Shown here: piece by piece, positions 4,226-35,388 of the stretch | Position numbering within the stretch: the stretch's first letter is position 1 | Layout: each line of letters begins with the position of its first letter | DNA from: a virus | IMG/VR virus record: IMGVR_UViG_3300031787_000409 | Location: 1 to 36,133 of that record | Length of the DNA: 36,133 nt | Reading direction: 5' to 3' (one strand) | The notes under the pieces: model-generated | Databases searched by the model: none | What the model was told of the DNA's origin: nothing | The model's input: the letters and a program-made list of their open reading frames with translations, nothing else | Translations under genes and position numbers: made by a program

Positions 4226-4629
4226 GTCAATTCAAACAGTTTTTGTGTGTCTGTAAAATCAATAGTGATACTGTCACCGCTTTGCAGCGTTACTGCCGAA
4301 CCTCTATCATACCAACATATCAGTGAATCGCTTGGTGATGTTTCGTTGTAAATTACTACGTACTGAAACGGACCTACTGCACCCGTTGCGGTTAACGTCA
4401 AGTCAGCTAATACAAGCGAATAAACACCGCCAGACTGTGCACTTGATGTTGTAGTTATGTTTCTGCTTGATAGGTTAGTGTAGCTTATTTGCGTAATATC
4501 TGCTAGCGTACTATTGCTCGCAGTTGGTGCTGTGTTGGTTAATGCTACCGTCAACTGATTGGTAGCTAAATTGTGTACACCGTTTGCAAGGTCTGCTACA
4601 AGTGAATTGAATTTGTTAAATGATGCCAT
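4222..4629 (-). CDS. Conserved phage structural protein, tail region
   Basis: 135 residues. The opening FNKFNSLVADLANGVHNL, with the later TQISYTNLSSRN and VGPFQYVVIYNE, is a pattern I recognise from a widespread small phage structural protein, probably a virion beta-sandwich. It contains no enzyme motif. It follows the tail-terminator-like gene and precedes the surface proteins. Its job (tail or capsid decoration) is inferred from position. Confidence that it is a virion protein is fairly high; its exact location is unknown. Confidence 0.7.
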   Translation of the reverse strand: MASFNKFNSLVADLANGVHNLATNQLTVALTNTAPTASNSTLADITQISYTNLSSRNITTTSSAQSGGVYSLVLADLTLTATGAVGPFQYVVIYNETSPSDSLICWYDRGSAVTLQSGDSITIDFTDTQKLFELT

Positions 4630-4640
4630 GTTTTTTTATT

Positions 4641-5531
4641 TTATAAAGGTTGAAACCAATACGAACCATTAGGCTGTCCTACTGGTTGTGTGTTACTTAC
4701 TGTTAAATTTGAAAGGTTTATTAAATTATTACATTCTGCCAACGCTGTTATATCTATTGTGTCCTCTGTATATACAAGTTGGTTTGTGCTAAATATCGGG
4801 TTGTCATTTTCATCTACTACTTCAATGATTAAATCTTCAAGTTCAAAGTTCGCAGGTGCTGTCACCGTTTCTACTACCGTGTCGTCTGTACGCTCAAGTA
4901 CTACATCCCCACCTCCGCCTGTATTCGGTACGGTTATCACACTACCCACCACGCTAACTGGTGTTACTGGATTGTTATTCGTATCTTGTAGTACTATATT
5001 CTCAACATCCCCACTAGGTACGGTTAAAAATGTATTGCCATTAAGTGTAAGTATCGCTGGCCTACATTCTACTTCAGGGTTAGGTATTGGGAATGAAGGT
5101 ACTTGACACCTATCACGCACTTGTTGTAAGTCAAGTATTAAATCTATTTGCCAACCGTTTACTTTGTCAGGGAATCCCTCACGTATAGGTGTTAAAGGTG
5201 CGCTGTACTGAATTAAAAAGTAATCTTCATACGATGGATTAGCTAACTCCGCATAAATATCCTGTGCGATGCTTAAACAATCGCTTAATGTGTCTGTTTC
5301 GTTATCCTCGTTATCTCTTACTATATCCAGTACATAAAGAGTTACAGCTAGGCTTAACGTCTTTTCGCTGATACTTGATGGCTGTATGTCCATCCACACC
5401 AAAGGGTAAGCTATCTGTTCGCTGGCCGATATACTAGACGGCTCACCAAACCCGAAATCATTTACCTGCTTGTGTGCTAGGCTTATCTGACTTATTAGAT
5501 TTATTACTTGATTTAGGGTGTAGAATACCAT
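4641..5531 (-). CDS. Tail terminator/completion-like protein with C-terminal beta domain
   Basis: 296 residues in two parts. Residues 1-140 resemble tail terminator/completion proteins: an N-terminal helix (TLNQVINLISQISLAHKQ), FGFGEP, then PLVWMDI, a beta strand LAVTLYVLDIV and the helix TDTLSDCLSIAQDIYAEL. Residues 150-296 add a beta-rich extension with a Gly linker (NTGGGGDVV), similar in style to other Bacteroidetes phage tail proteins. Terminators cap the tail tube and join it to the head. It follows the connector and portal genes, as expected. A 44-codon frame overlaps its 5' end, but the conserved N-terminal helix supports this ATG. Confidence 0.65.
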   Translation of the reverse strand: MVFYTLNQVINLISQISLAHKQVNDFGFGEPSSISASEQIAYPLVWMDIQPSSISEKTLSLAVTLYVLDIVRDNEDNETDTLSDCLSIAQDIYAELANPSYEDYFLIQYSAPLTPIREGFPDKVNGWQIDLILDLQQVRDRCQVPSFPIPNPEVECRPAILTLNGNTFLTVPSGDVENIVLQDTNNNPVTPVSVVGSVITVPNTGGGGDVVLERTDDTVVETVTAPANFELEDLIIEVVDENDNPIFSTNQLVYTEDTIDITALAECNNLINLSNLTVSNTQPVGQPNGSYWFQPL

Positions 5532-10058: not shown

Positions 10059-10646
10059 TTATCTTGATTTGTATTCTGCTATTACTTCAGCGATTGGTCG
10101 CTTTGTAGTTTGCTTTTTCTCGATTCTAAACATACCCGCAGTTGGTTTTACAGGTTCTGCTGCTGGCTCGTTTGCAATGCTTTCTACGATTTCTTTGATT
10201 GCATTAAACTTGCTTTCGGTGTCTGCTTTAGTTGAATTTACAACCTCGTTAACCTCGCTGAATTTGCTTTCGTATTCACCCAGTTTAGTTTCAAGTGCTG
10301 CTACTCTGTCAATCAGTTTAGCAAATTCACCAACGTGATTGGCAAACGCTTTTTCAAACTCGCTAGCCATAGCCTCGTCAACTTCTTTTTTATCCTCTAC
10401 TTCGGTTTCGATTGAAACAACTAAACCACCAACGGTAGATACATAAGTTCCATCTTCAAGTTCGTGCTTACCATCGGGTGCAGGTGTTGTGTTTCCATCT
10501 TCGCTTACAACGAATACGGGCGCACCTTCAACCAGTTCGCCTTCCCATTGAATGATAGTACCGTCTGTTAGTTTAGCATTGCCAAACTCTTTATCCTCAC
10601 CCATTAATAGGGTTTTGATTTTTTCAAATGCCTCTTTGCGTGTCAT
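10059..10646 (-). CDS. Capsid scaffold-like protein
   Basis: 195 residues, acidic. Residues about 20-80 contain a small beta domain with repeated DG..I / DGTYV turns (AKLTDGTIIQWEGELVEG, PAPDGKHELEDG). Residues 85-165 are a long coiled coil (FEKAFANHVGEFAKLIDRVAAL, LGEYESKFSEVNEVV). The C-terminus is basic (KKQTTKRPIAEVIAEYKSR), the usual capsid-binding end of scaffolds. It lies between the prohead protease and the capsid gene. It should guide shell assembly and be cleaved by the protease. The late-gene 12-mer lies upstream at 10662-10673. Confidence 0.75.
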   Translation of the reverse strand: MTRKEAFEKIKTLLMGEDKEFGNAKLTDGTIIQWEGELVEGAPVFVVSEDGNTTPAPDGKHELEDGTYVSTVGGLVVSIETEVEDKKEVDEAMASEFEKAFANHVGEFAKLIDRVAALETKLGEYESKFSEVNEVVNSTKADTESKFNAIKEIVESIANEPAAEPVKPTAGMFRIEKKQTTKRPIAEVIAEYKSR

Positions 10647-10661
10647 GTTATTATGTTTACT

Positions 10662-10673
10662 TATAAATATAAA
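10662..10673 (-). promoter_or_regulatory. Conserved late-gene 12-mer (TTTATATTTATA), copy 2
   Basis: Identical 12-mer in the 47-base gap before the scaffold gene, here about 15 bases upstream of the ATG. The larger distance argues against a simple ribosome-binding role and favours a promoter element. Confidence 0.45.
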
Positions 10674-10693
10674 TGCTTTTATCCGTTGCTTTT

Positions 10694-11275
10694 TTAGTCC
10701 TTAATTTGTTTTACGATGTCAATTATCTGCTCTATAATGGTCACTGGTTTGCGGTCTATCTTCTCCATCCCGAACACTCCCTCAACGCTAAAACCCCTGA
10801 ATTTACCTGTCTTTATAAAGTCGTTCCACACATCCTCGTTGTCTACTTTGTACGAACCAAACCAGCTACCGTCTTTTAGGTTAAAGCCTTGCGGTGAATG
10901 TATGCCCCTTTCGCTGTCAATGATAAAACTTTCAATCATATACACCCCTTCGATAAAGTCTTTTGGGTTGTGCATTGCGTTAACCTCGTGGCCGTATTGT
11001 TTTTTATGAAACTTATTGCGGATGTTGTACACGTCTTCAGCGGTAAACACACCGTAATATTCTCCTAATTCGTCACGTCTGTAAATAGGTAGGTCAGCAA
11101 CCATTAACGCACCGCTTATAATACGCTTTTCGCTGTCTGACTTAAACTGGATGTTATGGTTAAACGCCTGCCAGTTAATCTCTATTGCGGGTGTGTCTAC
11201 CAACGCAACGGCTGTAACTTCGGCTTCATCATTTTCACCTACAACAAAACGGTATATCGGTAATGTATTATCCAT
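10694..11275 (-). CDS. Prohead protease, XkdF-like (peptidase S78-related)
   Basis: 193 residues. The sequence follows XkdF-type putative prohead proteases: VTAVALVDTPAIEIN, KRIISGALMVADLPIYRRD, YYGVFTAEDVYNI, GHEVNAMHNPKDF (candidate catalytic His), ESFIIDSE (candidate Ser) and GSWFGSYKVDNEDVWNDF with FRGFSVEGVF at the end. It would cleave the scaffold and capsid during maturation. It stands directly before the scaffold gene, as expected. The 12-mer TTTATATTTATA is 4 bases upstream of its ATG. Confidence 0.82.
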   Translation of the reverse strand: MDNTLPIYRFVVGENDEAEVTAVALVDTPAIEINWQAFNHNIQFKSDSEKRIISGALMVADLPIYRRDELGEYYGVFTAEDVYNIRNKFHKKQYGHEVNAMHNPKDFIEGVYMIESFIIDSERGIHSPQGFNLKDGSWFGSYKVDNEDVWNDFIKTGKFRGFSVEGVFGMEKIDRKPVTIIEQIIDIVKQIKD

Positions 11276-18227: not shown

Positions 18228-19406
18228 TTAAATTGCTATTGTAGAATATTTACCTGAAGGGCGGTTGTTCAGTTTGTTCAACGCCACGTATCGCAACGCA
18301 TCCAGTGCATGGTTAAACGTGTCTATTGGTTTTCCAGTGTATTTACCTGTATTGTCTTTATCCCACGTGTAGCCTCTCAATTCTTTGATTAGGTTAGTGC
18401 TGTCCTTTGTTATCATTAAATCATACCGCTTCAGTATGTCTATGCCTATCTTAATACTGTCCGCACCCTTAATCGCTGGGTGTACGTTAAAGCCTTGTAA
18501 CCTTAATTCCTCTATTGACTTCGGCTCTGCACTATCACATATTAATTCGTTTCGATTAAAATTCAGCGACTTTAAGTAATTGCCTATGTCGTTATTGGTC
18601 ATGTTGGTTCGGTACAGTAACTCCCTAACCCATAACTTACCGTCCGACTTATACACAGCTATTAGTGTTGTAGGGTCATTTGTAAACCCAAAGTCCATAC
18701 CATGTGAAACTAACTTCGCATCTTCAGGTATTGTATCGCATTGTTTCCAGTCTTCATACACTACACCTTGCAGCGTACCTACTTCACCTAACCCATATAC
18801 CTTCCACCAGTTTGACCAATAATCGGACGTTGGTGCTTTGTTACGTGCCTTTTCTATTTCACGCACAATGCTATCTGATAGGGCTTCATTGTCTTTATAG
18901 GTTAATACTATCAACTCCGCATCTGGGTCTTTAATTAATTCGGTGTCTACCCAAAACTCCGCAACGGGGTTGTAGTCTAACCATATTTCGTCTGAAGTTC
19001 TTATGGCTAACTGTGAGTAACTTTCGAAGTCTACATTGTTACACTCATTAATATAAAGTATGTTACGCCTTGCGCCTCGTAGTTTGTCGGGTTGCTCTGC
19101 GCTAAAAAACTCAATAAACGAACCGTTTGAAAACCTGTAAGTAAGTAGTGACCTGTTCCAATTTGCATCTATAAAGCGGTTAGTGGACTGCATGATTTTA
19201 ATAAAGTCCTTCATTGCACCCCTGCGAAGGTGGGGTACTGTTTCGGCTACTACCGATATTTCTAAACCTGCCTGTTTTGTCGCACGGTCAATAAGTATAG
19301 GAAGTACGCCAAAGGTCTTACCCGCTGACGTTCCCCCACGTACTATCTTTATTCGCTTGGATAGTTTGCGAAGTTTCTTTATTGCCGTTGTGTAAACGAA
19401 ACTCAT
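18228..19406 (-). CDS. terL: Terminase large subunit (ATPase and nuclease)
   Basis: 392 residues. It is the packaging motor. Walker A GGTSAGKT lies at 24-31; Walker B with the catalytic Glu is NILYINEC. A coupling-like segment follows (SQLAIRTSDEIWLDYNPVAEF). The RNase H-like nuclease carries MDFGFTNDPTTLI (first Asp), ELICDSAEPKSIEEL (second Asp) and DTFNHALDALRY (third acidic site). The layout matches PBSX/SPP1-type large terminases. Length is normal to slightly short. The gene overlaps the small subunit gene by 4 bases. Confidence 0.95.
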   Translation of the reverse strand: MSFVYTTAIKKLRKLSKRIKIVRGGTSAGKTFGVLPILIDRATKQAGLEISVVAETVPHLRRGAMKDFIKIMQSTNRFIDANWNRSLLTYRFSNGSFIEFFSAEQPDKLRGARRNILYINECNNVDFESYSQLAIRTSDEIWLDYNPVAEFWVDTELIKDPDAELIVLTYKDNEALSDSIVREIEKARNKAPTSDYWSNWWKVYGLGEVGTLQGVVYEDWKQCDTIPEDAKLVSHGMDFGFTNDPTTLIAVYKSDGKLWVRELLYRTNMTNNDIGNYLKSLNFNRNELICDSAEPKSIEELRLQGFNVHPAIKGADSIKIGIDILKRYDLMITKDSTNLIKELRGYTWDKDNTGKYTGKPIDTFNHALDALRYVALNKLNNRPSGKYSTIAI

Positions 19407-20274: not shown

Positions 20275-20938
20275 ATTTCAAAGTTAATTTATTTTTAGTT
20301 AAATCCCAAACCTTATTGTGTACCACGTTATAAGTGAATGGTGTTTCAATGGTATGGTTTACAGCATCGGTAACTGGTTGTATGCCTGCGAACATTCCGA
20401 AAGGTATGTCTAAATCATTACAGCAATCGTCAATTAGCAGTGTGTGTGTTGCTAGTGGTGCGTATTCTATTATATCTGACTTGGCTACATCGTATGAGTG
20501 GCCACCGTCTATGTACACAACGTCAAAGTTTTTAAGTGCTTTAACCGCTTGTATTATGTTTGGGTCTGTACTTAAACCTTTAATTATGTTTGGTTGTTTT
20601 AAGCTAAAGTGAGTGTGTAGATACTGGATGTCACTTTCATAATCTGATTCCCAGTGTCCGTCTGTACTGTCTAGTGGTGTAACACCGTATAGTGTGCAGG
20701 TTTTACCAGCTAGTTTTGCAAGTGTCTGTACAAGTGCAAGTGTTTGACCTCTGAATACTCCTATTTCTAAAAGGCTGAAGTGGTTTGGCAGTTTGTCTAC
20801 TATTAGTTTCCACATCCAATAGAATGACCGTTCACCAAACCCAAAAGCGTGCTGCTCTACAAAATCCCTTAATGCTTTTAATTCGGGTACTTTGTTTGTT
20901 TCTTGACAATAATAGTCATGTAATTCTTTATGATTCAT
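20261..20938 (-). CDS. Class I SAM-dependent methyltransferase
   Basis: 225 residues. The Rossmann core shows motif I LLEIGVFRGQT (56-66, SAM binding), NFDVVYIDGGHSYDVAKSD (motif IV region) and ATHTLLIDDCC. This is the Methyltransf_24 type, common in glycan and small-molecule clusters. A GHSYD His-Asp pair could bind metal. It follows three glycosyltransferase genes and overlaps the PLOD-like one by 11 bases, so it probably methylates a sugar (inference). A DNA methyltransferase is unlikely, since no (D/N/S)PP(Y/F) motif is present. Confidence 0.8.
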   Translation of the reverse strand: MNHKELHDYYCQETNKVPELKALRDFVEQHAFGFGERSFYWMWKLIVDKLPNHFSLLEIGVFRGQTLALVQTLAKLAGKTCTLYGVTPLDSTDGHWESDYESDIQYLHTHFSLKQPNIIKGLSTDPNIIQAVKALKNFDVVYIDGGHSYDVAKSDIIEYAPLATHTLLIDDCCNDLDIPFGMFAGIQPVTDAVNHTIETPFTYNVVHNKVWDLTKNKLTLKYANT

Positions 20939-21515
20939 ATCTTGTTAAATCTCCTTTGCCGTTTGCATGAATAAATACTGGTTTAGTTCCTATGTCTGTA
21001 ATAAACCTACCGTCTGCCATGTGTCCGCACGTTTCTAGCATACCGCACGTGTTTTGCACTAATCTTCTTTCGTAGTCTAGTTTTAACTCATACTTCAGCA
21101 CCATGTCTGTCATCCAGCGTTGGTCATCGTCTGAATATTGCGGTGGGTTTTCGTTAAACATTTTCAAATATAATTCTTTATTTAATGAGTAACATCCTGA
21201 ATTAGGGTACTTGTAGTGTGTGTTTGGTTGCGGGAACTGTTGCCACCTGTCTGCATCAGGCCAGCAGTTTATTTCAGTGCCTATTAAATCTTCAGTAACT
21301 TCATCGGGTTTGCCTAGACATATAACATCGTAAGCATCAACAAATACGAACCTATCAATATTGACCTTTTCTAAATATTCTTTTAAGTGTATTAGTTTAG
21401 TTCCAAATCCACGCCAGCTTGCTTTTATAATCTCGTAAGTCCATCCGCAACGCTCAAGTGATTGAACTAGCTTATTGGCTCTTGCTGGGTCATCACACAC
21501 ACTTATTGCTATCAT
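20928..21515 (-). CDS. PLOD/GT25-like glycosyltransferase
   Basis: 195 residues. The fold resembles the glycosyltransferase domain of procollagen lysyl hydroxylase/galactosyltransferase proteins. Metal-binding motif DAYD is at 60-63 (FVFVDAYDVICLG); YPNSGCYSLNKELYLK supplies the acceptor-site loop; SDDDQRWMTDM and the C-terminal PVFIHANGKGD (a second metal-binding His) complete it. Such enzymes transfer hexose from a UDP-sugar. The start overlaps the GT2 gene stop (ATGA). Target unknown: virion glycoprotein or host surface glycan. Confidence 0.8.
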   Translation of the reverse strand: MIAISVCDDPARANKLVQSLERCGWTYEIIKASWRGFGTKLIHLKEYLEKVNIDRFVFVDAYDVICLGKPDEVTEDLIGTEINCWPDADRWQQFPQPNTHYKYPNSGCYSLNKELYLKMFNENPPQYSDDDQRWMTDMVLKYELKLDYERRLVQNTCGMLETCGHMADGRFITDIGTKPVFIHANGKGDLTRYES

Positions 21516-22276
21516 ATCGGTATATATATTGATTGTTCGCCTGTTGCAAATTTACGTTTTACTTCGTTAAATTTATCCATCATTTGTCCAGCGTATTTTC
21601 TTTTCCAGTCTGTATACTCGTTCCCACCTTCGTCTATGTGGTCAATTTCAATGTGTGGCAAGAATGAATTTTTGAAGCCCGCTAGTTTAGAACGTACACA
21701 CGCCAGCGTATCGTCAAATCCATATAACCCATCCATCTGATACATACCGCCTATCTTTTCAATTAAACGATAATTAAACATAGTACAAGTACCCATTATG
21801 TGTTCAGCATCTTCAACTATAATCCACCTATCGCCTTTATTGTGTGGCAACATACGTAGTGTTGTTTTCCAGTGGTCGTTTCTAAAAGGGTTTTCCATTA
21901 GGTCTTTTCTTTTTAAACCTAAAATGCCTATGCTTTTGTCTGTTTCAATAGCGTATTCCATATCGTCAACCCAGTCTGTAAAGTAAAACTCCACATCGTT
22001 ATCCATTTTAATTAAATGCTCTTTGGGTTTGCGTAACGCCCACGCCTGATTAATAGCTTTGGCAGTTCCCACATTTACTTCGTTGGTTATTACTGTTGCC
22101 CAGCTTTTTGCGGTTTCAAGTATTCGTTTGGTTGCATCACATGAAGCGTTATCTACTATTACTACTCGATGTCTTTCTAGGTCTATTGTATCTTTTAACG
22201 ATAGTAGTGTACGCATAGTGTAATGACTACGCCCGTTTTCTATTGTATCGTAACAAGCTAATGCTATTAATGCCAT
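21512..22276 (-). CDS. Glycosyltransferase family 2 (GT-A fold)
   Basis: 254 residues. The nucleotide-sugar site shows RVVIVDNASCDATKRIL (37-53), VNVGTAKAINQAW, and the DXD metal motif DND at 92-94 in LIKMDNDVEF. Downstream YGFDDTLACVRSKLAGF fits the acceptor-side ED-type motif. There are no membrane spans, so it is cytosolic and soluble. It would add a sugar from an NDP-sugar donor. It sits between a small protein with a CxxC motif and the PLOD-like transferase, and forms a translationally coupled series. Confidence 0.85.
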   Translation of the reverse strand: MALIALACYDTIENGRSHYTMRTLLSLKDTIDLERHRVVIVDNASCDATKRILETAKSWATVITNEVNVGTAKAINQAWALRKPKEHLIKMDNDVEFYFTDWVDDMEYAIETDKSIGILGLKRKDLMENPFRNDHWKTTLRMLPHNKGDRWIIVEDAEHIMGTCTMFNYRLIEKIGGMYQMDGLYGFDDTLACVRSKLAGFKNSFLPHIEIDHIDEGGNEYTDWKRKYAGQMMDKFNEVKRKFATGEQSIYIPI

Positions 22277-28945: not shown

Positions 28946-29578
28946 TTAGAATTGGCTTTGAAATGCTTTAATCTTTTCTGCTTTTTCTTGCTCAAGTGTT
29001 TTGGCTTTTTGTATTTCATTTTCAGGTTTAAACCAAACTGATTGTATTTTCTGTTTCCAGTTTAATATTTTATCTCCTTTTGAATCATGCCAATCTGCTT
29101 CGTTATAATACCTAAATGCTTTTATAGCTATTTCTTTTCTATAACCATTATCTATAAAATAATTTATAACTTCATTTTCATTTTCAGGTCGTATAACTTT
29201 TGTACGTTTTTTCTTTGGTATTGTATTACTATTGCTTTGAGATTGCAATGCAATTGTATCGGTTTGTTTTACAATTGTATTTTTACGCTTTAACCATGTT
29301 TCTTTAGCAGCCTTACTTAAGTTGGTACTTTTTACACTCCTTTTTGCCATTTCCTGCATTAACCTTTCATTGTAAAAACCATCTTCACACTCAATAAATT
29401 TTGAGCGTATAATATCGTGCGTTGATACCATAGAATTAAACGTAACTTTATCTATAATACCTCCGTGCTGATGTTGTGAACATAACAAACGCATATATAT
29501 ACCAATCTGTTCGTTTGTCATAAACATTGTACCAGTTAAAAAATCTGATGTATAAAATAAAAATGCAGGGTCTTTCAT
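28946..29578 (-). CDS. Replication initiator/helicase loader-like protein
   Basis: 210 residues. N-terminus MKDPAFLFYTSDFLTGTMFMTNEQIGIYMRLL is the DUF1376/Lin1244-type winged-helix opening found in phage replication proteins. The linker is basic (PKKKRTKVIRPENE). The C-terminus AFRYYNEADWHDSKGDKILNWKQKIQSVW resembles the conserved end of such initiators. It would bind origin DNA and help load the helicase encoded next. Codon use is AT-rich compared with the early genes to the right. Stop 2 bases before helicase start. Confidence 0.75.
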   Translation of the reverse strand: MKDPAFLFYTSDFLTGTMFMTNEQIGIYMRLLCSQHQHGGIIDKVTFNSMVSTHDIIRSKFIECEDGFYNERLMQEMAKRSVKSTNLSKAAKETWLKRKNTIVKQTDTIALQSQSNSNTIPKKKRTKVIRPENENEVINYFIDNGYRKEIAIKAFRYYNEADWHDSKGDKILNWKQKIQSVWFKPENEIQKAKTLEQEKAEKIKAFQSQF

Positions 29579-29868
29579 GTGTTTTTGTTACTTAAAATTC
29601 GTAAAACTTCGGCAGCTGATTCTTTTCTATTATTCTTGAAGTCAATAACAAATTTGTAAGTATTGCTATAATCTACTTCAGGATGTATGTGTTTCGAGTA
29701 TTCAATTAACTCTTTAAGCATTGCATCTGTAAACCAATATTTTTTAGATAAATGTACAAACATTGATTCATCTGCATTACGCTTTAAATAATTTACGTCA
29801 ATTTGATAATCATTTTTAACGTTTGGGTATATAAACCCTTTTTTAACTGTAAAGTAATTTAGTTTCAT
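29575..29868 (-). CDS. Hypothetical protein of replication operon
   Basis: 97 residues, basic. Contains LNYFTVKKGFIYPNVKNDYQ, FTDAMLKELIEYSKHI and AAEVLRILSN. No known motif. AT-rich. It overlaps the initiator gene by 4 bases and the 32-codon frame upstream by 4 (ATGA). Function unknown, presumably replication-linked. Confidence 0.6.
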   Translation of the reverse strand: MKLNYFTVKKGFIYPNVKNDYQIDVNYLKRNADESMFVHLSKKYWFTDAMLKELIEYSKHIHPEVDYSNTYKFVIDFKNNRKESAAEVLRILSNKNT

Positions 29869-29963
29869 AAAAATAAAAACGCCTCATTGCTTTCTCTGTT
29901 TTGACACAGCCTACGAAAAAGGCCAACAGGTACTCGCAATAAGGCGTTAAAAATTCGATTCAT
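29865..29963 (-). CDS. Possible 32-residue protein coinciding with a structured RNA
   Basis: An ATG at 29963 opens 32 codons with a TGA overlapping the next ATG (ATGA), the arrangement used by many real genes here. The product would begin MNRIFNALLRVPVGLFRRLC, amphipathic and basic. The same bases form a 13-bp stem (29878-29890 with 29936-29948), so this may be a leader peptide whose translation controls folding, or a non-coding structured leader. Confidence 0.4.
   Translation of the reverse strand: MNRIFNALLRVPVGLFRRLCQNRESNEAFLFL
29878..29948 (-). promoter_or_regulatory. Long stem-loop/terminator-like leader before the helicase operon
   Basis: Minus strand: AACGCCTTATTGC pairs with GCAATGAGGCGTT (12 of 13), closing a 45-base inner region. 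It is followed by TTTATTTTT, so it could end transcription or act as an attenuator ahead of the 97-residue gene. It overlaps the 32-codon frame. Confidence 0.55.
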
Positions 29964-30016
29964 TTTTCGTTTATTATTCGGTAGGGTGTCAAGCCTATTA
30001 TTCCGATGTTGTGCTA

Positions 30017-30024
30017 CAAATATA
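30017..30024 (-). promoter_or_regulatory. Possible promoter -7 box for the helicase operon
   Basis: TATATTTG on the minus strand matches TAnnTTTG, 10 bases after the SSB-like stop region begins. The expected -33 TTTG is absent (GATA is at the 19-nt distance), so it may be weak. It lies upstream of the structured leader. Confidence 0.35.
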
Positions 30025-32191: not shown

Positions 32192-32806
32192 TTATACTAT
32201 TTGGTTTTTACGTGTTGTGAATGCGTGCTTAAATCTTGTGTTGGTGTGATAGTCAGGGTACAGCTGCCATGTTTCGTTTAACTCGGCCAGCGTGCTGCAT
32301 TTAGCTAAATCTTCAGTTACTGAATCAAGTGTTACATCGGTTACATACGCTTCCTCGAATTGACGGTTAACGTCCGCACCGTACTTTTTACCTATCTTTT
32401 TTGCAGCGTTTTTTATCGCTTCAGCATAGGCTTTAGGTGCATTCATTTGTAGGGCGTTTTTCTTTTTCGTATCGTTAAACTGGCTGATACTTGCACCGCT
32501 ATCCTGCATGATTTGCACCGCACCTATACCGTCATAATTTAGCCACTGCATAAGTACGGGGTGAAATACCTTAATACGTGCCGATACGATGTACTCGTTT
32601 AACTCCCTGCGCTCGCTCAATACCTCATATTGAACCAAACCGTTAAAGTCTTCACGTAGTTGGTTCTCGAGTATCCCGATTGGTATGTATTCAGCTTTGT
32701 TGTCAGGAGTTTTCTTTAGCCATTCCCGCATAGGTTGGCTGTTTAGTTTGGCTGTGAAATCTTGCAGTAAGTCCACAGCCCCAGTTTTAGTTAGTGTAGT
32801 TTCCAT
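32192..32806 (-). CDS. Rad52/Sak-like single-strand annealing protein
   Basis: 204 residues. Central YIPIGILENQLREDFNGLVQY, NEYIVSARIKVFHPVLMQWL, YDGIGAVQIMQDSGASISQF and NAPKAYAEAIKNAAKKIGKKY match the Rad52-type fold of Sak/phage annealases: beta hairpin, then the conserved A-[ED]-[AS]-x-A-x-x-x-A-A-[KR]-x-[IL]-G helix. It anneals single strands with the YqaJ-type exonuclease. C-terminal 45 residues (ELNETWQLYPDYHTN) may contact SSB. The C-terminus differs from RecT, so this class is preferred. Confidence 0.8.
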   Translation of the reverse strand: METTLTKTGAVDLLQDFTAKLNSQPMREWLKKTPDNKAEYIPIGILENQLREDFNGLVQYEVLSERRELNEYIVSARIKVFHPVLMQWLNYDGIGAVQIMQDSGASISQFNDTKKKNALQMNAPKAYAEAIKNAAKKIGKKYGADVNRQFEEAYVTDVTLDSVTEDLAKCSTLAELNETWQLYPDYHTNTRFKHAFTTRKNQIV

Positions 32807-34236: not shown

Positions 34237-34458
34237 TTAGTATTTATCGTTGTAAGTTTTTTCGATTAAATAGTGGCAATAGTTAACGGCTTCAGCGTGT
34301 TTTTCTGCATCGCTGTCGTCATTGAACCAATCGTATGCTTCGCTGTTGGTTGTGTGTGCTTTTACAAGCGTTCCGTTAACATAGCCCGATACTTGATACT
34401 GACCGTAGCCTGATTTACGTGCGATTCCTAAATCTGTGATTGTGATTGCTGTGTTCAT
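34237..34458 (-). CDS. First gene of the early operon, small hypothetical
   Basis: 73 residues. The N-terminal half is beta-like (TAITITDLGIARKSGYGQYQ, SGYVNGTLVKAHTT), the C-terminal half helical (DDSDAEKHAEAVNYCHYLIEK). No known motif. It is the first gene after the control region and has a strong promoter 24-54 bases upstream, so it should be expressed early. Anti-host function is possible (inference). Confidence 0.65.
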   Translation of the reverse strand: MNTAITITDLGIARKSGYGQYQVSGYVNGTLVKAHTTNSEAYDWFNDDSDAEKHAEAVNYCHYLIEKTYNDKY

Positions 34459-34481
34459 GGTGTTTGTTGTTAATTGTTGTA

Positions 34482-34512
34482 CAAAGATAAATACAGGTTC
34501 GATAACTGCAAA
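34482..34512 (-). promoter_or_regulatory. Promoter P1 (Bacteroidetes type) for the early operon
   Basis: Minus strand: TTTG (34512-34509), 19-base spacer, TATCTTTG (34489-34482), matching TTTG-N19-TAnnTTTG. Start of transcription is expected near 34475, giving a 17-base leader to the first early gene. The -33 box lies within AAATTTATTTGCAG, shared with P2. Confidence 0.8.
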
Positions 34513-34576
34513 TAAATTTCAATTAAAATTATATATATACCCGTAACTTGCTGAAAATCAGCGCAATAAAATTAAC

Positions 34577-34597
34577 AAAAAAGGGGCATTACGCCCC
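34577..34597 (-). terminator. Intrinsic terminator T1 in the control region
   Basis: Minus strand: GGGGC, loop GTAAT, GCCCC, then TTTTTTG. It ends transcripts coming from promoters P2-P4 before P1, so the early operon has its own start and P2 makes a short RNA. Confidence 0.85.
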
Positions 34598-34624
34598 AAT
34601 TCTGATGAAAACTACCGAAAAAAA
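34577..34624 (-). ncRNA. Predicted small RNA from P2 to T1 (about 48 nt)
   Basis: P2 would start transcription near 34624, and T1 would end it at about 34577. The product is essentially a U-rich 5' part, an A/C-rich link and the terminator hairpin. It contains no ATG frame of useful length. Predicted from promoter and terminator only. Confidence 0.45.
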
Positions 34625-34629
34625 GTAAG

Positions 34630-34660
34630 CAAATATACTATAATAAAACAGCCCTGCAAA
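34630..34660 (-). promoter_or_regulatory. Promoter P2 (Bacteroidetes type)
   Basis: Minus strand: TTTG (34660-34657), 19-base spacer, TATATTTG (34637-34630). Its -33 side is embedded in the hairpin of terminator T2, so read-through from P3 and use of P2 may interfere. Confidence 0.75.
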
Positions 34661-34677
34661 TAAATTTACAAGGCTGT
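34641..34677 (-). terminator. Intrinsic terminator T2 in the control region
   Basis: Minus strand: ACAGCC TTGTAAAT / ATTTGCAG GGCTGT, up to 14 pairs with two wobbles, followed by TTTATTA. It would end transcripts from P3. Confidence 0.7.
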
Positions 34678-34707
34678 CAGCCCAAGTATTCTCTACAAGG
34701 GGTGGTT
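34641..34707 (-). ncRNA. Predicted small RNA from P3 to T2 (about 67 nt)
   Basis: P3 would start near 34707 and T2 end near 34641. The 5' part holds ACCACCCCTTGTAG and the 3' part the T2 hairpin. No credible ORF. Predicted from signals only; together with the P2-T1 unit it makes a tandem pair. Confidence 0.45.
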
Positions 34708-34712
34708 CAATG

Positions 34713-34743
34713 CAAATATACTACTTACGAATGATTATACAAG
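34713..34743 (-). promoter_or_regulatory. Promoter P3 (Bacteroidetes type)
   Basis: Minus strand: CTTG (34743-34740), 19-base spacer, TATATTTG (34720-34713). The -33 box is a three-of-four match, and it lies inside the perfect dyad at 34733-34756, which suggests repression by a bound protein. Confidence 0.6.
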
Positions 34744-34756
34744 TATATGTATAATC
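34733..34756. promoter_or_regulatory. Dyad-symmetric operator candidate
   Basis: GATTATACA, 6-base centre, TGTATAATC: nine perfect pairs. It overlaps the P3 -33 box and is immediately next to a long hairpin. Size and symmetry fit a dimeric HTH repressor. No cI-like repressor gene is seen nearby; the 70- or 78-residue HTH proteins are candidates. Confidence 0.6.
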
Positions 34757-34788
34757 AGCCAGACTCATTAGGCGAATCTGGCTGATTA
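34752..34788. other. 12-bp perfect hairpin in the control region
   Basis: TAATCAGCCAGA pairs perfectly with TCTGGCTGATTA around a 13-base loop. No T-tract follows on either strand, so it is a stable RNA or DNA structure rather than a simple terminator; it could end the P4 RNA or be a replication or protein-binding site. Confidence 0.7.
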
Positions 34789-34797
34789 GTACAATAG

Positions 34798-34966
34798 TTA
34801 GAGATTTTTTGATAGTATTGATCCACTTCTTAAAAAATCGCTAACACAACTGAAGAAAGAGAGTTTTCTAATAGTGTTATTAGGACACTTCTTAGATAAG
34901 TAGCCTGTTGAATTCTCTTTATCACGTCCACCGGTAGTTGCACTTACTAGTGGCCGTTTCTTTTTG
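34798..34966 (-). ncRNA. Predicted untranslated RNA region from P4
   Basis: About 170-215 nt transcribed from P4. It holds two imperfect direct repeats containing AAGAAGTG (about 34797-34840 and 34856-34903), a CTAATA-GTGT-TATTAG hairpin and a CCAC...GTGG hairpin near the 5' end. One frame is open to a TAA at 34800-34798 but has no ATG, GTG or TTG. I favour a structured RNA or origin-linked element. Confidence 0.35.
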
Positions 34967-34972
34967 TGTGTG

Positions 34973-35003
34973 CAAATATAATAAATAAATATTACAATGC
35001 AAA
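34973..35003 (-). promoter_or_regulatory. Promoter P4 (Bacteroidetes type)
   Basis: Minus strand: TTTG (35003-35000), 19-base spacer, TATATTTG (34980-34973), a full match to the Bacteroidetes consensus. It stands right after the spanin-like gene and would start transcription near 34966 into the untranslated region. Confidence 0.75.
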
Positions 35004-35004
35004 T

Positions 35005-35388
35005 TTATTTTTTCAAAATTAAACCTATTATGAAACCTAAAAAAAATATAAAGTAAATAAACCAACGCACTTTATACACCATTTCAAAACTTGTTAATTC
35101 AGGGCATTTAATAGTGTGATAAACTGGTACGCTGATAGTCTTATATATCGTATCTCCTTCACATTGTCCGCTCAAGTACACGCTATCTTTTACACGTATG
35201 TACTTCACTTTTAGTTTTTCTTTTTCCAATACTACGGTATCGTGTGTTGTGTTAAACACCGTGTCGGCTTTCACCGTTTCGATGTACGTAGTGTCATGTA
35301 CCGTAACCCTTTTTTCTACGGTTACTTCAGTTGTGCGGCAAGCGATTAAACTACTTACAATCGCAAGTATTACAAGGTTGTATTTCAT
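35005..35388 (-). CDS. Lipoprotein with C-terminal membrane segment, unimolecular spanin candidate
   Basis: 127 residues. N-terminus NLVILAIVSSLIAC is a signal with lipobox (LIAC, lipidated Cys17). The periplasmic part is beta-rich (VTVEKRVTVHDTTYIETV, DTVVLEKEKLKVKYIRV). The C-terminus VRWFIYFIFFLGFIIGLILKK is a membrane span. An outer-membrane lipid anchor with a C-terminal inner-membrane span is the architecture of u-spanins such as T1 gp11 (similar size), which fuse the two membranes at the end of lysis. It is separated from the endolysin in the linear window, but it could be close in the complete genome. Confidence 0.55.
   Translation of the reverse strand: MKYNLVILAIVSSLIACRTTEVTVEKRVTVHDTTYIETVKADTVFNTTHDTVVLEKEKLKVKYIRVKDSVYLSGQCEGDTIYKTISVPVYHTIKCPELTSFEMVYKVRWFIYFIFFLGFIIGLILKK

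Follow-up and report, generated by a model that had tools for sequence, protein, structure and literature searches.

Tandem promoter–terminator units as candidate small-RNA genes before the early operon of a probable Bacteroidetes phage

The window (the whole stretch of DNA analysed, an IMG/VR virus record of 36,133 bases; the genes considered are read on the minus strand) contains an island of 546 bases (34459-35004, read on the minus strand), a non-coding stretch that separates a gene for a probable spanin-like protein from an early operon. Four Bacteroidetes-type promoters (P4, P3, P2 and P1, in order of transcription) and two intrinsic terminators (T2 and T1) are located in it. The island may represent tandem small-RNA units, with terminated RNAs from P4, P3 and P2, followed by a shielded early operon transcribed from P1; we give this reading an even chance. 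Transcription by host RNA polymerase carrying the main sigma factor would begin at P4, P3 and P2 and end at T2 or T1, and the products would be folded RNAs of only about 328, 68 and 49 nt; we infer that these are made and then released as free small RNAs. T2 and T1 would at the same time shield the early operon from transcription coming from upstream, and the operon would start afresh at P1. That the small RNAs act in trans, on RNA or proteins of the phage or of the host, would be a guess.

Genomic context

The large terminase subunit shares 56% identity with its homologue of Flavobacterium psychrophilum phages, and the best match of an exonuclease is to Riemerella phage RAP44 (39%); because of these similarities, the virus probably infects a bacterium of the Bacteroidetes. 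One MAG contig labelled 'Bacteroidetes bacterium' encodes a relative of the ParB-like protein (37%).

The upstream neighbour of the island, ORF 35005-35388, has a lipoprotein-type start and a C-terminal hydrophobic end, from which a spanin-like protein is suggested; no match was found in Pfam or PHROGs. A phosphoesterase gene is also located upstream. The genes downstream are of early type; a DnaA-like helix-turn-helix domain and a YqaJ exonuclease domain were recognised among them. Of the ORFs that touch the island, the longest encodes 47 amino acids and overlaps the upstream gene, and the others encode 23-37 amino acids; a coding gene within the island was thus rejected, as was a tRNA, and the first-pass annotation was right to report no credible gene here. 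Elsewhere in the window, at approximately 27570-27435, 26450-26310 and 26040-25930 (minus strand), there are imperfect intergenic palindromes of the TAACG...GTTATGGGC type flanking a methyltransferase gene and small ORFs, which we take to be candidates for a resemblance to integron attC sites.

Promoters, terminators and predicted RNAs

The four promoters are on the minus strand and have 19-base spacers, as first annotated:

34973-35003, minus: P4, TTTG-19-TATATTTG; -33 box 35003-35000, -7 box 34980-34973, start ~34968
34713-34743, minus: P3, CTTG-19-TATATTTG; -33 box 34743-34740, -7 box 34720-34713, start ~34708
34630-34660, minus: P2, TTTG-19-TATATTTG; -33 box 34660-34657, -7 box 34637-34630, start ~34625
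34482-34512, minus: P1 (early operon), TTTG-19-TATCTTTG; -33 box 34512-34509, -7 box 34489-34482, start ~34477

The starts were placed by the location of the -7 box of Bacteroidetes-type promoters at -12 to -5, as given in PMC9723704, and the positions proposed earlier agree with them within 1-2 bases. The predicted start of P1 lies 19 bases before the ATG of ORF 34237-34458. The -33 box of P3 is CTTG, with three of the four consensus letters, which corrects the earlier annotation. Both terminators that had been annotated are present, and the predicted RNAs follow from the promoter and terminator positions:

34637-34678, minus: terminator T2, 14-pair stem-loop (34678-34647) and T-rich tail; fold z -5.2
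34577-34597, minus: terminator T1, GGGGCGTAATGCCCC then TTTTTTG, stem-loop 34597-34583 of 6 pairs; fold z -3.2
34641-34968, minus: predicted RNA P4-T2, ~328 nt, strongly folded (z -5.06)
34641-34708, minus: predicted RNA P3-T2, ~68 nt
34577-34625, minus: predicted RNA P2-T1, ~49 nt

The -33 box of P2 is located in the 3' arm of T2, so that the units are interlocked, as had been noted. Like canonical intergenic bacterial sRNAs, P3-T2 and P2-T1 each have a terminator of their own. There is none for P4 before T2, which is a second correction: the P4 RNA would run to T2. The proposal of short-RNA units is supported by analogous units near the corresponding place in related phages.

Three further elements lie between P4 and P3:

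34797-34845, minus: hairpin with 14-nt arms, inside the P4 RNA
34752-34788, minus: hairpin of 15-16 pairs, no T tail, inside the P4 RNA
34732-34757, unstranded: perfect 10-6-10 palindrome, TGATTATACA-6-TGTATAATCA, covering the -33 box of P3

The hairpins drive the fold z of the P4-T2 RNA; the fold of its first 143 nt alone is unremarkable (z -0.91). The palindrome is present as a single copy in the window, allowing up to 3 mismatches, and could be a repressor operator.

Units in related phages

First scans with the genes nearest the island found no relatives, and the ORF next to the island has no relative in IMG/VR. Relatives were obtained with the ParB-like gene (4, then 15 loci), the phosphoesterase (7 loci), and the protein of 32192-32806 aligned with its homologue in locus L019 (15 loci). 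Seven loci (L019, L024, L025, L027, L028, L031 and L032), which represent about five lineages, encode both the phosphoesterase, upstream, and the 32192-32806 homologue, downstream; near-copies (L027/L028, L031/L032 and L003/L004) were counted as one lineage each.

All seven relatives carry two or three promoter–terminator units after the phosphoesterase gene, with sequences that differ from those of the window; the units of L028 and L031 were read from scan and alignment outputs, and those of the other five also as sequence. This recurrence in 7/7 relatives, with a covarying kissing-loop RNA as unit 2 in 6/7 (next section), argues for the small-RNA reading.

In locus L024 three units lie one after another; their -7 boxes are at 4396, 4512 and 4684, and a terminator of the GGGTGTTTTTTTT type follows each of them. 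After the third unit, just before the next gene, there is a TATATTTG promoter, which parallels P1 after T1 in the window; the P1 promoter and leader are kept in L024 at 5377-5426 (50 nt, 78%, E 5e-4). The assignment of P1 to the early operon is thereby backed, and the conserved P1, with a fresh promoter after the units in L024 as well, supports the small-RNA reading. The 'timer' role proposed at first found no support, the gene after the units having its own promoter in both genomes.

The six other relatives have two units in common. In unit 1, TACATTTG is followed at a distance of 52-53 nt by GGGGTCGGCAGCAATGTCGGCCTC with a T tract, as read in L019, L025, L027, L028 and L032, with L031 included as a near-copy of L032 and not by a separate reading; unit 2 is about 85-89 nt long. 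A TTTG -33 box at strict spacing before unit 1 is present only in L019, L027 and L028, and because it is missing from the rest, the unit 1 promoter looks weaker there.

No relative aligns over the units of the window itself, none of 50,697 phage records matched them as DNA, and no exact match was found to a 19-nt piece of P2-T1. Among 44 comparisons, there was weak similarity of P2-T1 to unit 1 (p 0.013-0.03) and of P3-T2 to unit L024b (p 0.007), and for P4 against L031, 0 of 300 shuffles were as similar. A P4 motif is common to L031, L032 and L029 (31 nt, 84%, E 0.006); the three contigs in IMG/VR that match it are all its own source contigs, hence give no independent support.

On these data the island may also be a plain boundary, at which T2 and T1 stop upstream transcription and P1 drives the early operon, while P4, P3 and P2 serve as additional early promoters with partial read-through, with the short RNAs as by-products. 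The exact placement of T1 and T2 between the upstream genes and P1, the orientation of every promoter toward the early operon, and the lack of sequence conservation of the units among relatives all fit this explanation. However, promoters 45-70 bases before strong terminators would be poor drivers of an operon, and units of this kind are kept in relatives, with conserved loop–loop pairing in one unit of 6/7. We consider a plain boundary possible, though unlikely.

Kissing-loop RNAs

Unit 2 of these six relatives has a kissing-loop plan, in which the first hairpin and the terminator have complementary loops. The loops are GAGAGAG/CUCUCUC in L019, L031 and L032, AUAGCGG/CCGCUAU in L025, and AUAGGAC/GUCCUAU in L027 and L028; between L025 and L027, three of the seven loop–loop pairs are doubly changed and none is broken, with both stems unchanged. 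RNAs of this plan were also found elsewhere in the relatives, in front of genes: after the ParB-like gene in L002 and L006 (3/7 pairs doubly changed, none broken) and in L007, before the ParB-like gene in L003, L004 and L005 (1/9 doubly changed, none broken; in this alignment the small middle hairpin is out of register, 64% paired), and in L010 and, twice, L012. In total, there are 17 copies in 7 positional groups, including:

L002 10846-10985: kissing-loop RNA
L003 9865-9975: kissing-loop RNA
L005 5974-6080: kissing-loop RNA
L006 3053-3186: kissing-loop RNA
L007 10920-11060: kissing-loop RNA
L010 5750-5880: kissing-loop RNA
L012 5724-5850 and 15684-15800: two kissing-loop RNAs
L025 1162-1270: kissing-loop RNA
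Window 29866-30024, minus: separate kissing-loop unit with TATATTTG promoter, loops UUGACAC/GUGUCAA and a terminator directly before ORF 29575-29868; kept in L026

In the copy of the window (RNA 30011-29866), the first loop would form 7 pairs with an unpaired segment of the terminator loop, which is long here; by eye, concerted changes in L026 seem to affect the pairs of its inner hairpin too.

The slid controls separated better than the shuffle control, with no more than one doubly changed pair versus three observed; in the shuffle control on the pair counts, 57-62 of 500 shuffles reached the observed value, two sequences being too few to decide. The mechanical kissing-loop descriptor was unspecific (55 matches versus 40 expected in 577 kb), and the case therefore rests on covariation among orthologues. 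Reading of the sequence by eye, and not the descriptor, identified the members in L025, L027, L028 and L007, and descriptor matches in coding-like sequence or without a real T tract were set aside, also by eye.

With at least 7 Watson–Crick pairs between the first hairpin loop and the terminator loop as the criterion, the island units were rejected as kissing-loop RNAs. P2-T1 has no loop–loop match of this type. The only match in P3-T2, CCUUGUAGA/UUUGCAGGG with nine pairs, three of them G-U, joins an upstream segment and the 3' arm of T2; it could act as a weak antiterminator, though it would compete with the 14-pair stem of T2.

Outside the window, most kissing-loop RNAs terminate close to a start codon. 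Where they form leaders of genes, their T tract nearly reaches the start codon with no promoter between; these leaders, whose genes have no fresh promoter after the terminator, look like attenuators. The same arrangement, elsewhere in the window and in relatives, counts in favour of a controlled read-through of the island, in which the promoters would fire from the start but transcription would be cut short as long as neither an antiterminator nor the RNA itself allows the polymerase to pass; the lambda pR'-tR' leader with Q and the HK022 put RNA are precedents. The island has the corresponding layout of promoter, short leader, terminator and operon. However, the order of terminator, fresh promoter and gene, in the window as in L024, speaks against such control of the island, since with P1 after T1 read-through is not needed, and no antiterminator gene was recognised; we regard controlled read-through as distinctly unlikely.

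Comparison with chance expectation

A strict promoter criterion, xTTG-19-TAnnTTTG, which was chosen after the sites had been seen, gave four matches on both strands of the 36-kb window, all four within the island. In 2000 dinucleotide shuffles of the island there was a mean of 0.016 strict promoters (maximum 2, versus 4 observed) and of 0.0015 strong terminators (versus 2 observed), and no shuffle reached four promoters or two strong terminators. By sequence, the units thus have promoters of their own, as is usual for canonical intergenic bacterial sRNAs, and this concentration in the island argues for the small-RNA reading. With a TTTG -33 box and spacers of 18-22 bases, eight matches to TAnnTTTG were found versus 2.2 expected, three of them in the island; spacers of 18-20 added one minus-strand promoter, inside the gene at 20286, and one on the plus strand.

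Less specific scans gave no enrichment: E. coli-type promoters (15 versus 11.4 expected in 4.1 kb), terminators in general (3 versus 3.9 expected in 4.1 kb), and TAnnTTTG without a -33 box (51 versus 52.5 expected). Chance look-alikes of promoters and terminators in an AT-rich gap would agree with these last results, but are very improbable given 0/2000 shuffles under the paired criterion and the conservation of P1.

Applied to both strands of seven genomes of cultured Bacteroidetes phages (287 kb), the strict scan found a single promoter–terminator unit, in RAP44, and no tandem pair, which is a further argument for small-RNA units in the island. Gene-free annotation gaps of about 600-700 bases are located by the terminase genes of three cultured Bacteroides-group phages, BT61P1 (10254-10838; L049), BK745P4 (21182-21783; L041) and PM116P4 (18366-19070; L050); no strict promoter–terminator units were found in these three phages.

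Searches for RNA families and targets

No matches to Rfam 15 were obtained at the gathering cut-off in the window or in 10 relatives. Under permissive settings the island had two matches below threshold (17.4 and 12.3 bits versus cut-offs of 290.8 and 60), and membership of an Rfam family was rejected. Permissive searches of the kissing-loop copies of L003 and of the window gave no matches, and L025 gave two below threshold, the better of which (tp2, 28 bits versus a cut-off of 50, E 0.008) is taken as chance.

The pairing of P2-T1 and P3-T2 with phage start regions was no better than that of shuffled RNAs (fractions 0.72 and 0.21), and lends no support to an antisense role of the window's RNAs at phage start codons. 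Among the nine RNAs tested, L024a reached a fraction of 0.007 of shuffles and unit 1 of 0.05-0.13; these are at most a lead. The unit 1 RNA (L019 445-481, L025 1065-1096, L027 943-972) is complementary over 11 nt to AATATGAAAGA, the start of a 74-aa ORF upstream of the 32192 homologue; at the above fraction this match is not clearly above chance.

Relation to known systems and significance

Counted against the small-RNA reading are the imperfect -33 box of P3, P4 without its own terminator, the lack of a start-codon target above chance, and the units of the window being unaligned in relatives, with weak similarities. In its favour, most sRNAs of Bacteroides confirmed by Northern blot have both a start site and an intrinsic terminator (PMC7366714). 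Intergenic sRNAs with a sigma-ABfr promoter such as GibS (PMC7366714) resemble the island units in the TAnnTTTG/TTTG promoter, the intrinsic terminator and the non-coding character. The island units differ from these in being phage-borne, several in a row and overlapping, and they are known here as predictions from DNA sequence.

In the pR'-tR' leader of phage lambda (phage 6S RNA), which is under Q control, a promoter is likewise closely followed by a terminator before a phage operon. The island differs by several tandem units and by a separate promoter after the last terminator; with P1 after T1, and conserved in L024, its operon would not depend on read-through of a terminator as in the lambda system. 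Type III toxin–antitoxin leaders have the order promoter, structured RNA, terminator and gene, which is shared by the kissing-loop RNAs of relatives and the unit at 30.0 kb, though not by the island; unlike in those systems, neither a repeat array in the RNA nor a gene resembling a toxin was recognised.

The kissing-loop RNAs may form a class of RNA in Bacteroidetes phages that has not been described before. More tentatively, and on balance somewhat doubtfully, these phages may carry an inter-operon site with arrays of independent small-RNA genes, including this class, in which a 5' hairpin loop clamps the RNA's own terminator loop and the loops vary freely but in step; the clamp would serve either to stabilise the small RNA once released or to adjust termination ahead of the following gene.

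Small RNAs and termination control look little studied in Bacteroidetes phages, and a literature search found nothing on them. If the RNAs are made, RNA regulation by phages could be studied on compact examples in a phylum that uses a promoter type of its own, and a covarying kissing-loop terminator would be a new class of RNA structure, for which the question is whether loop–loop pairing changes termination.
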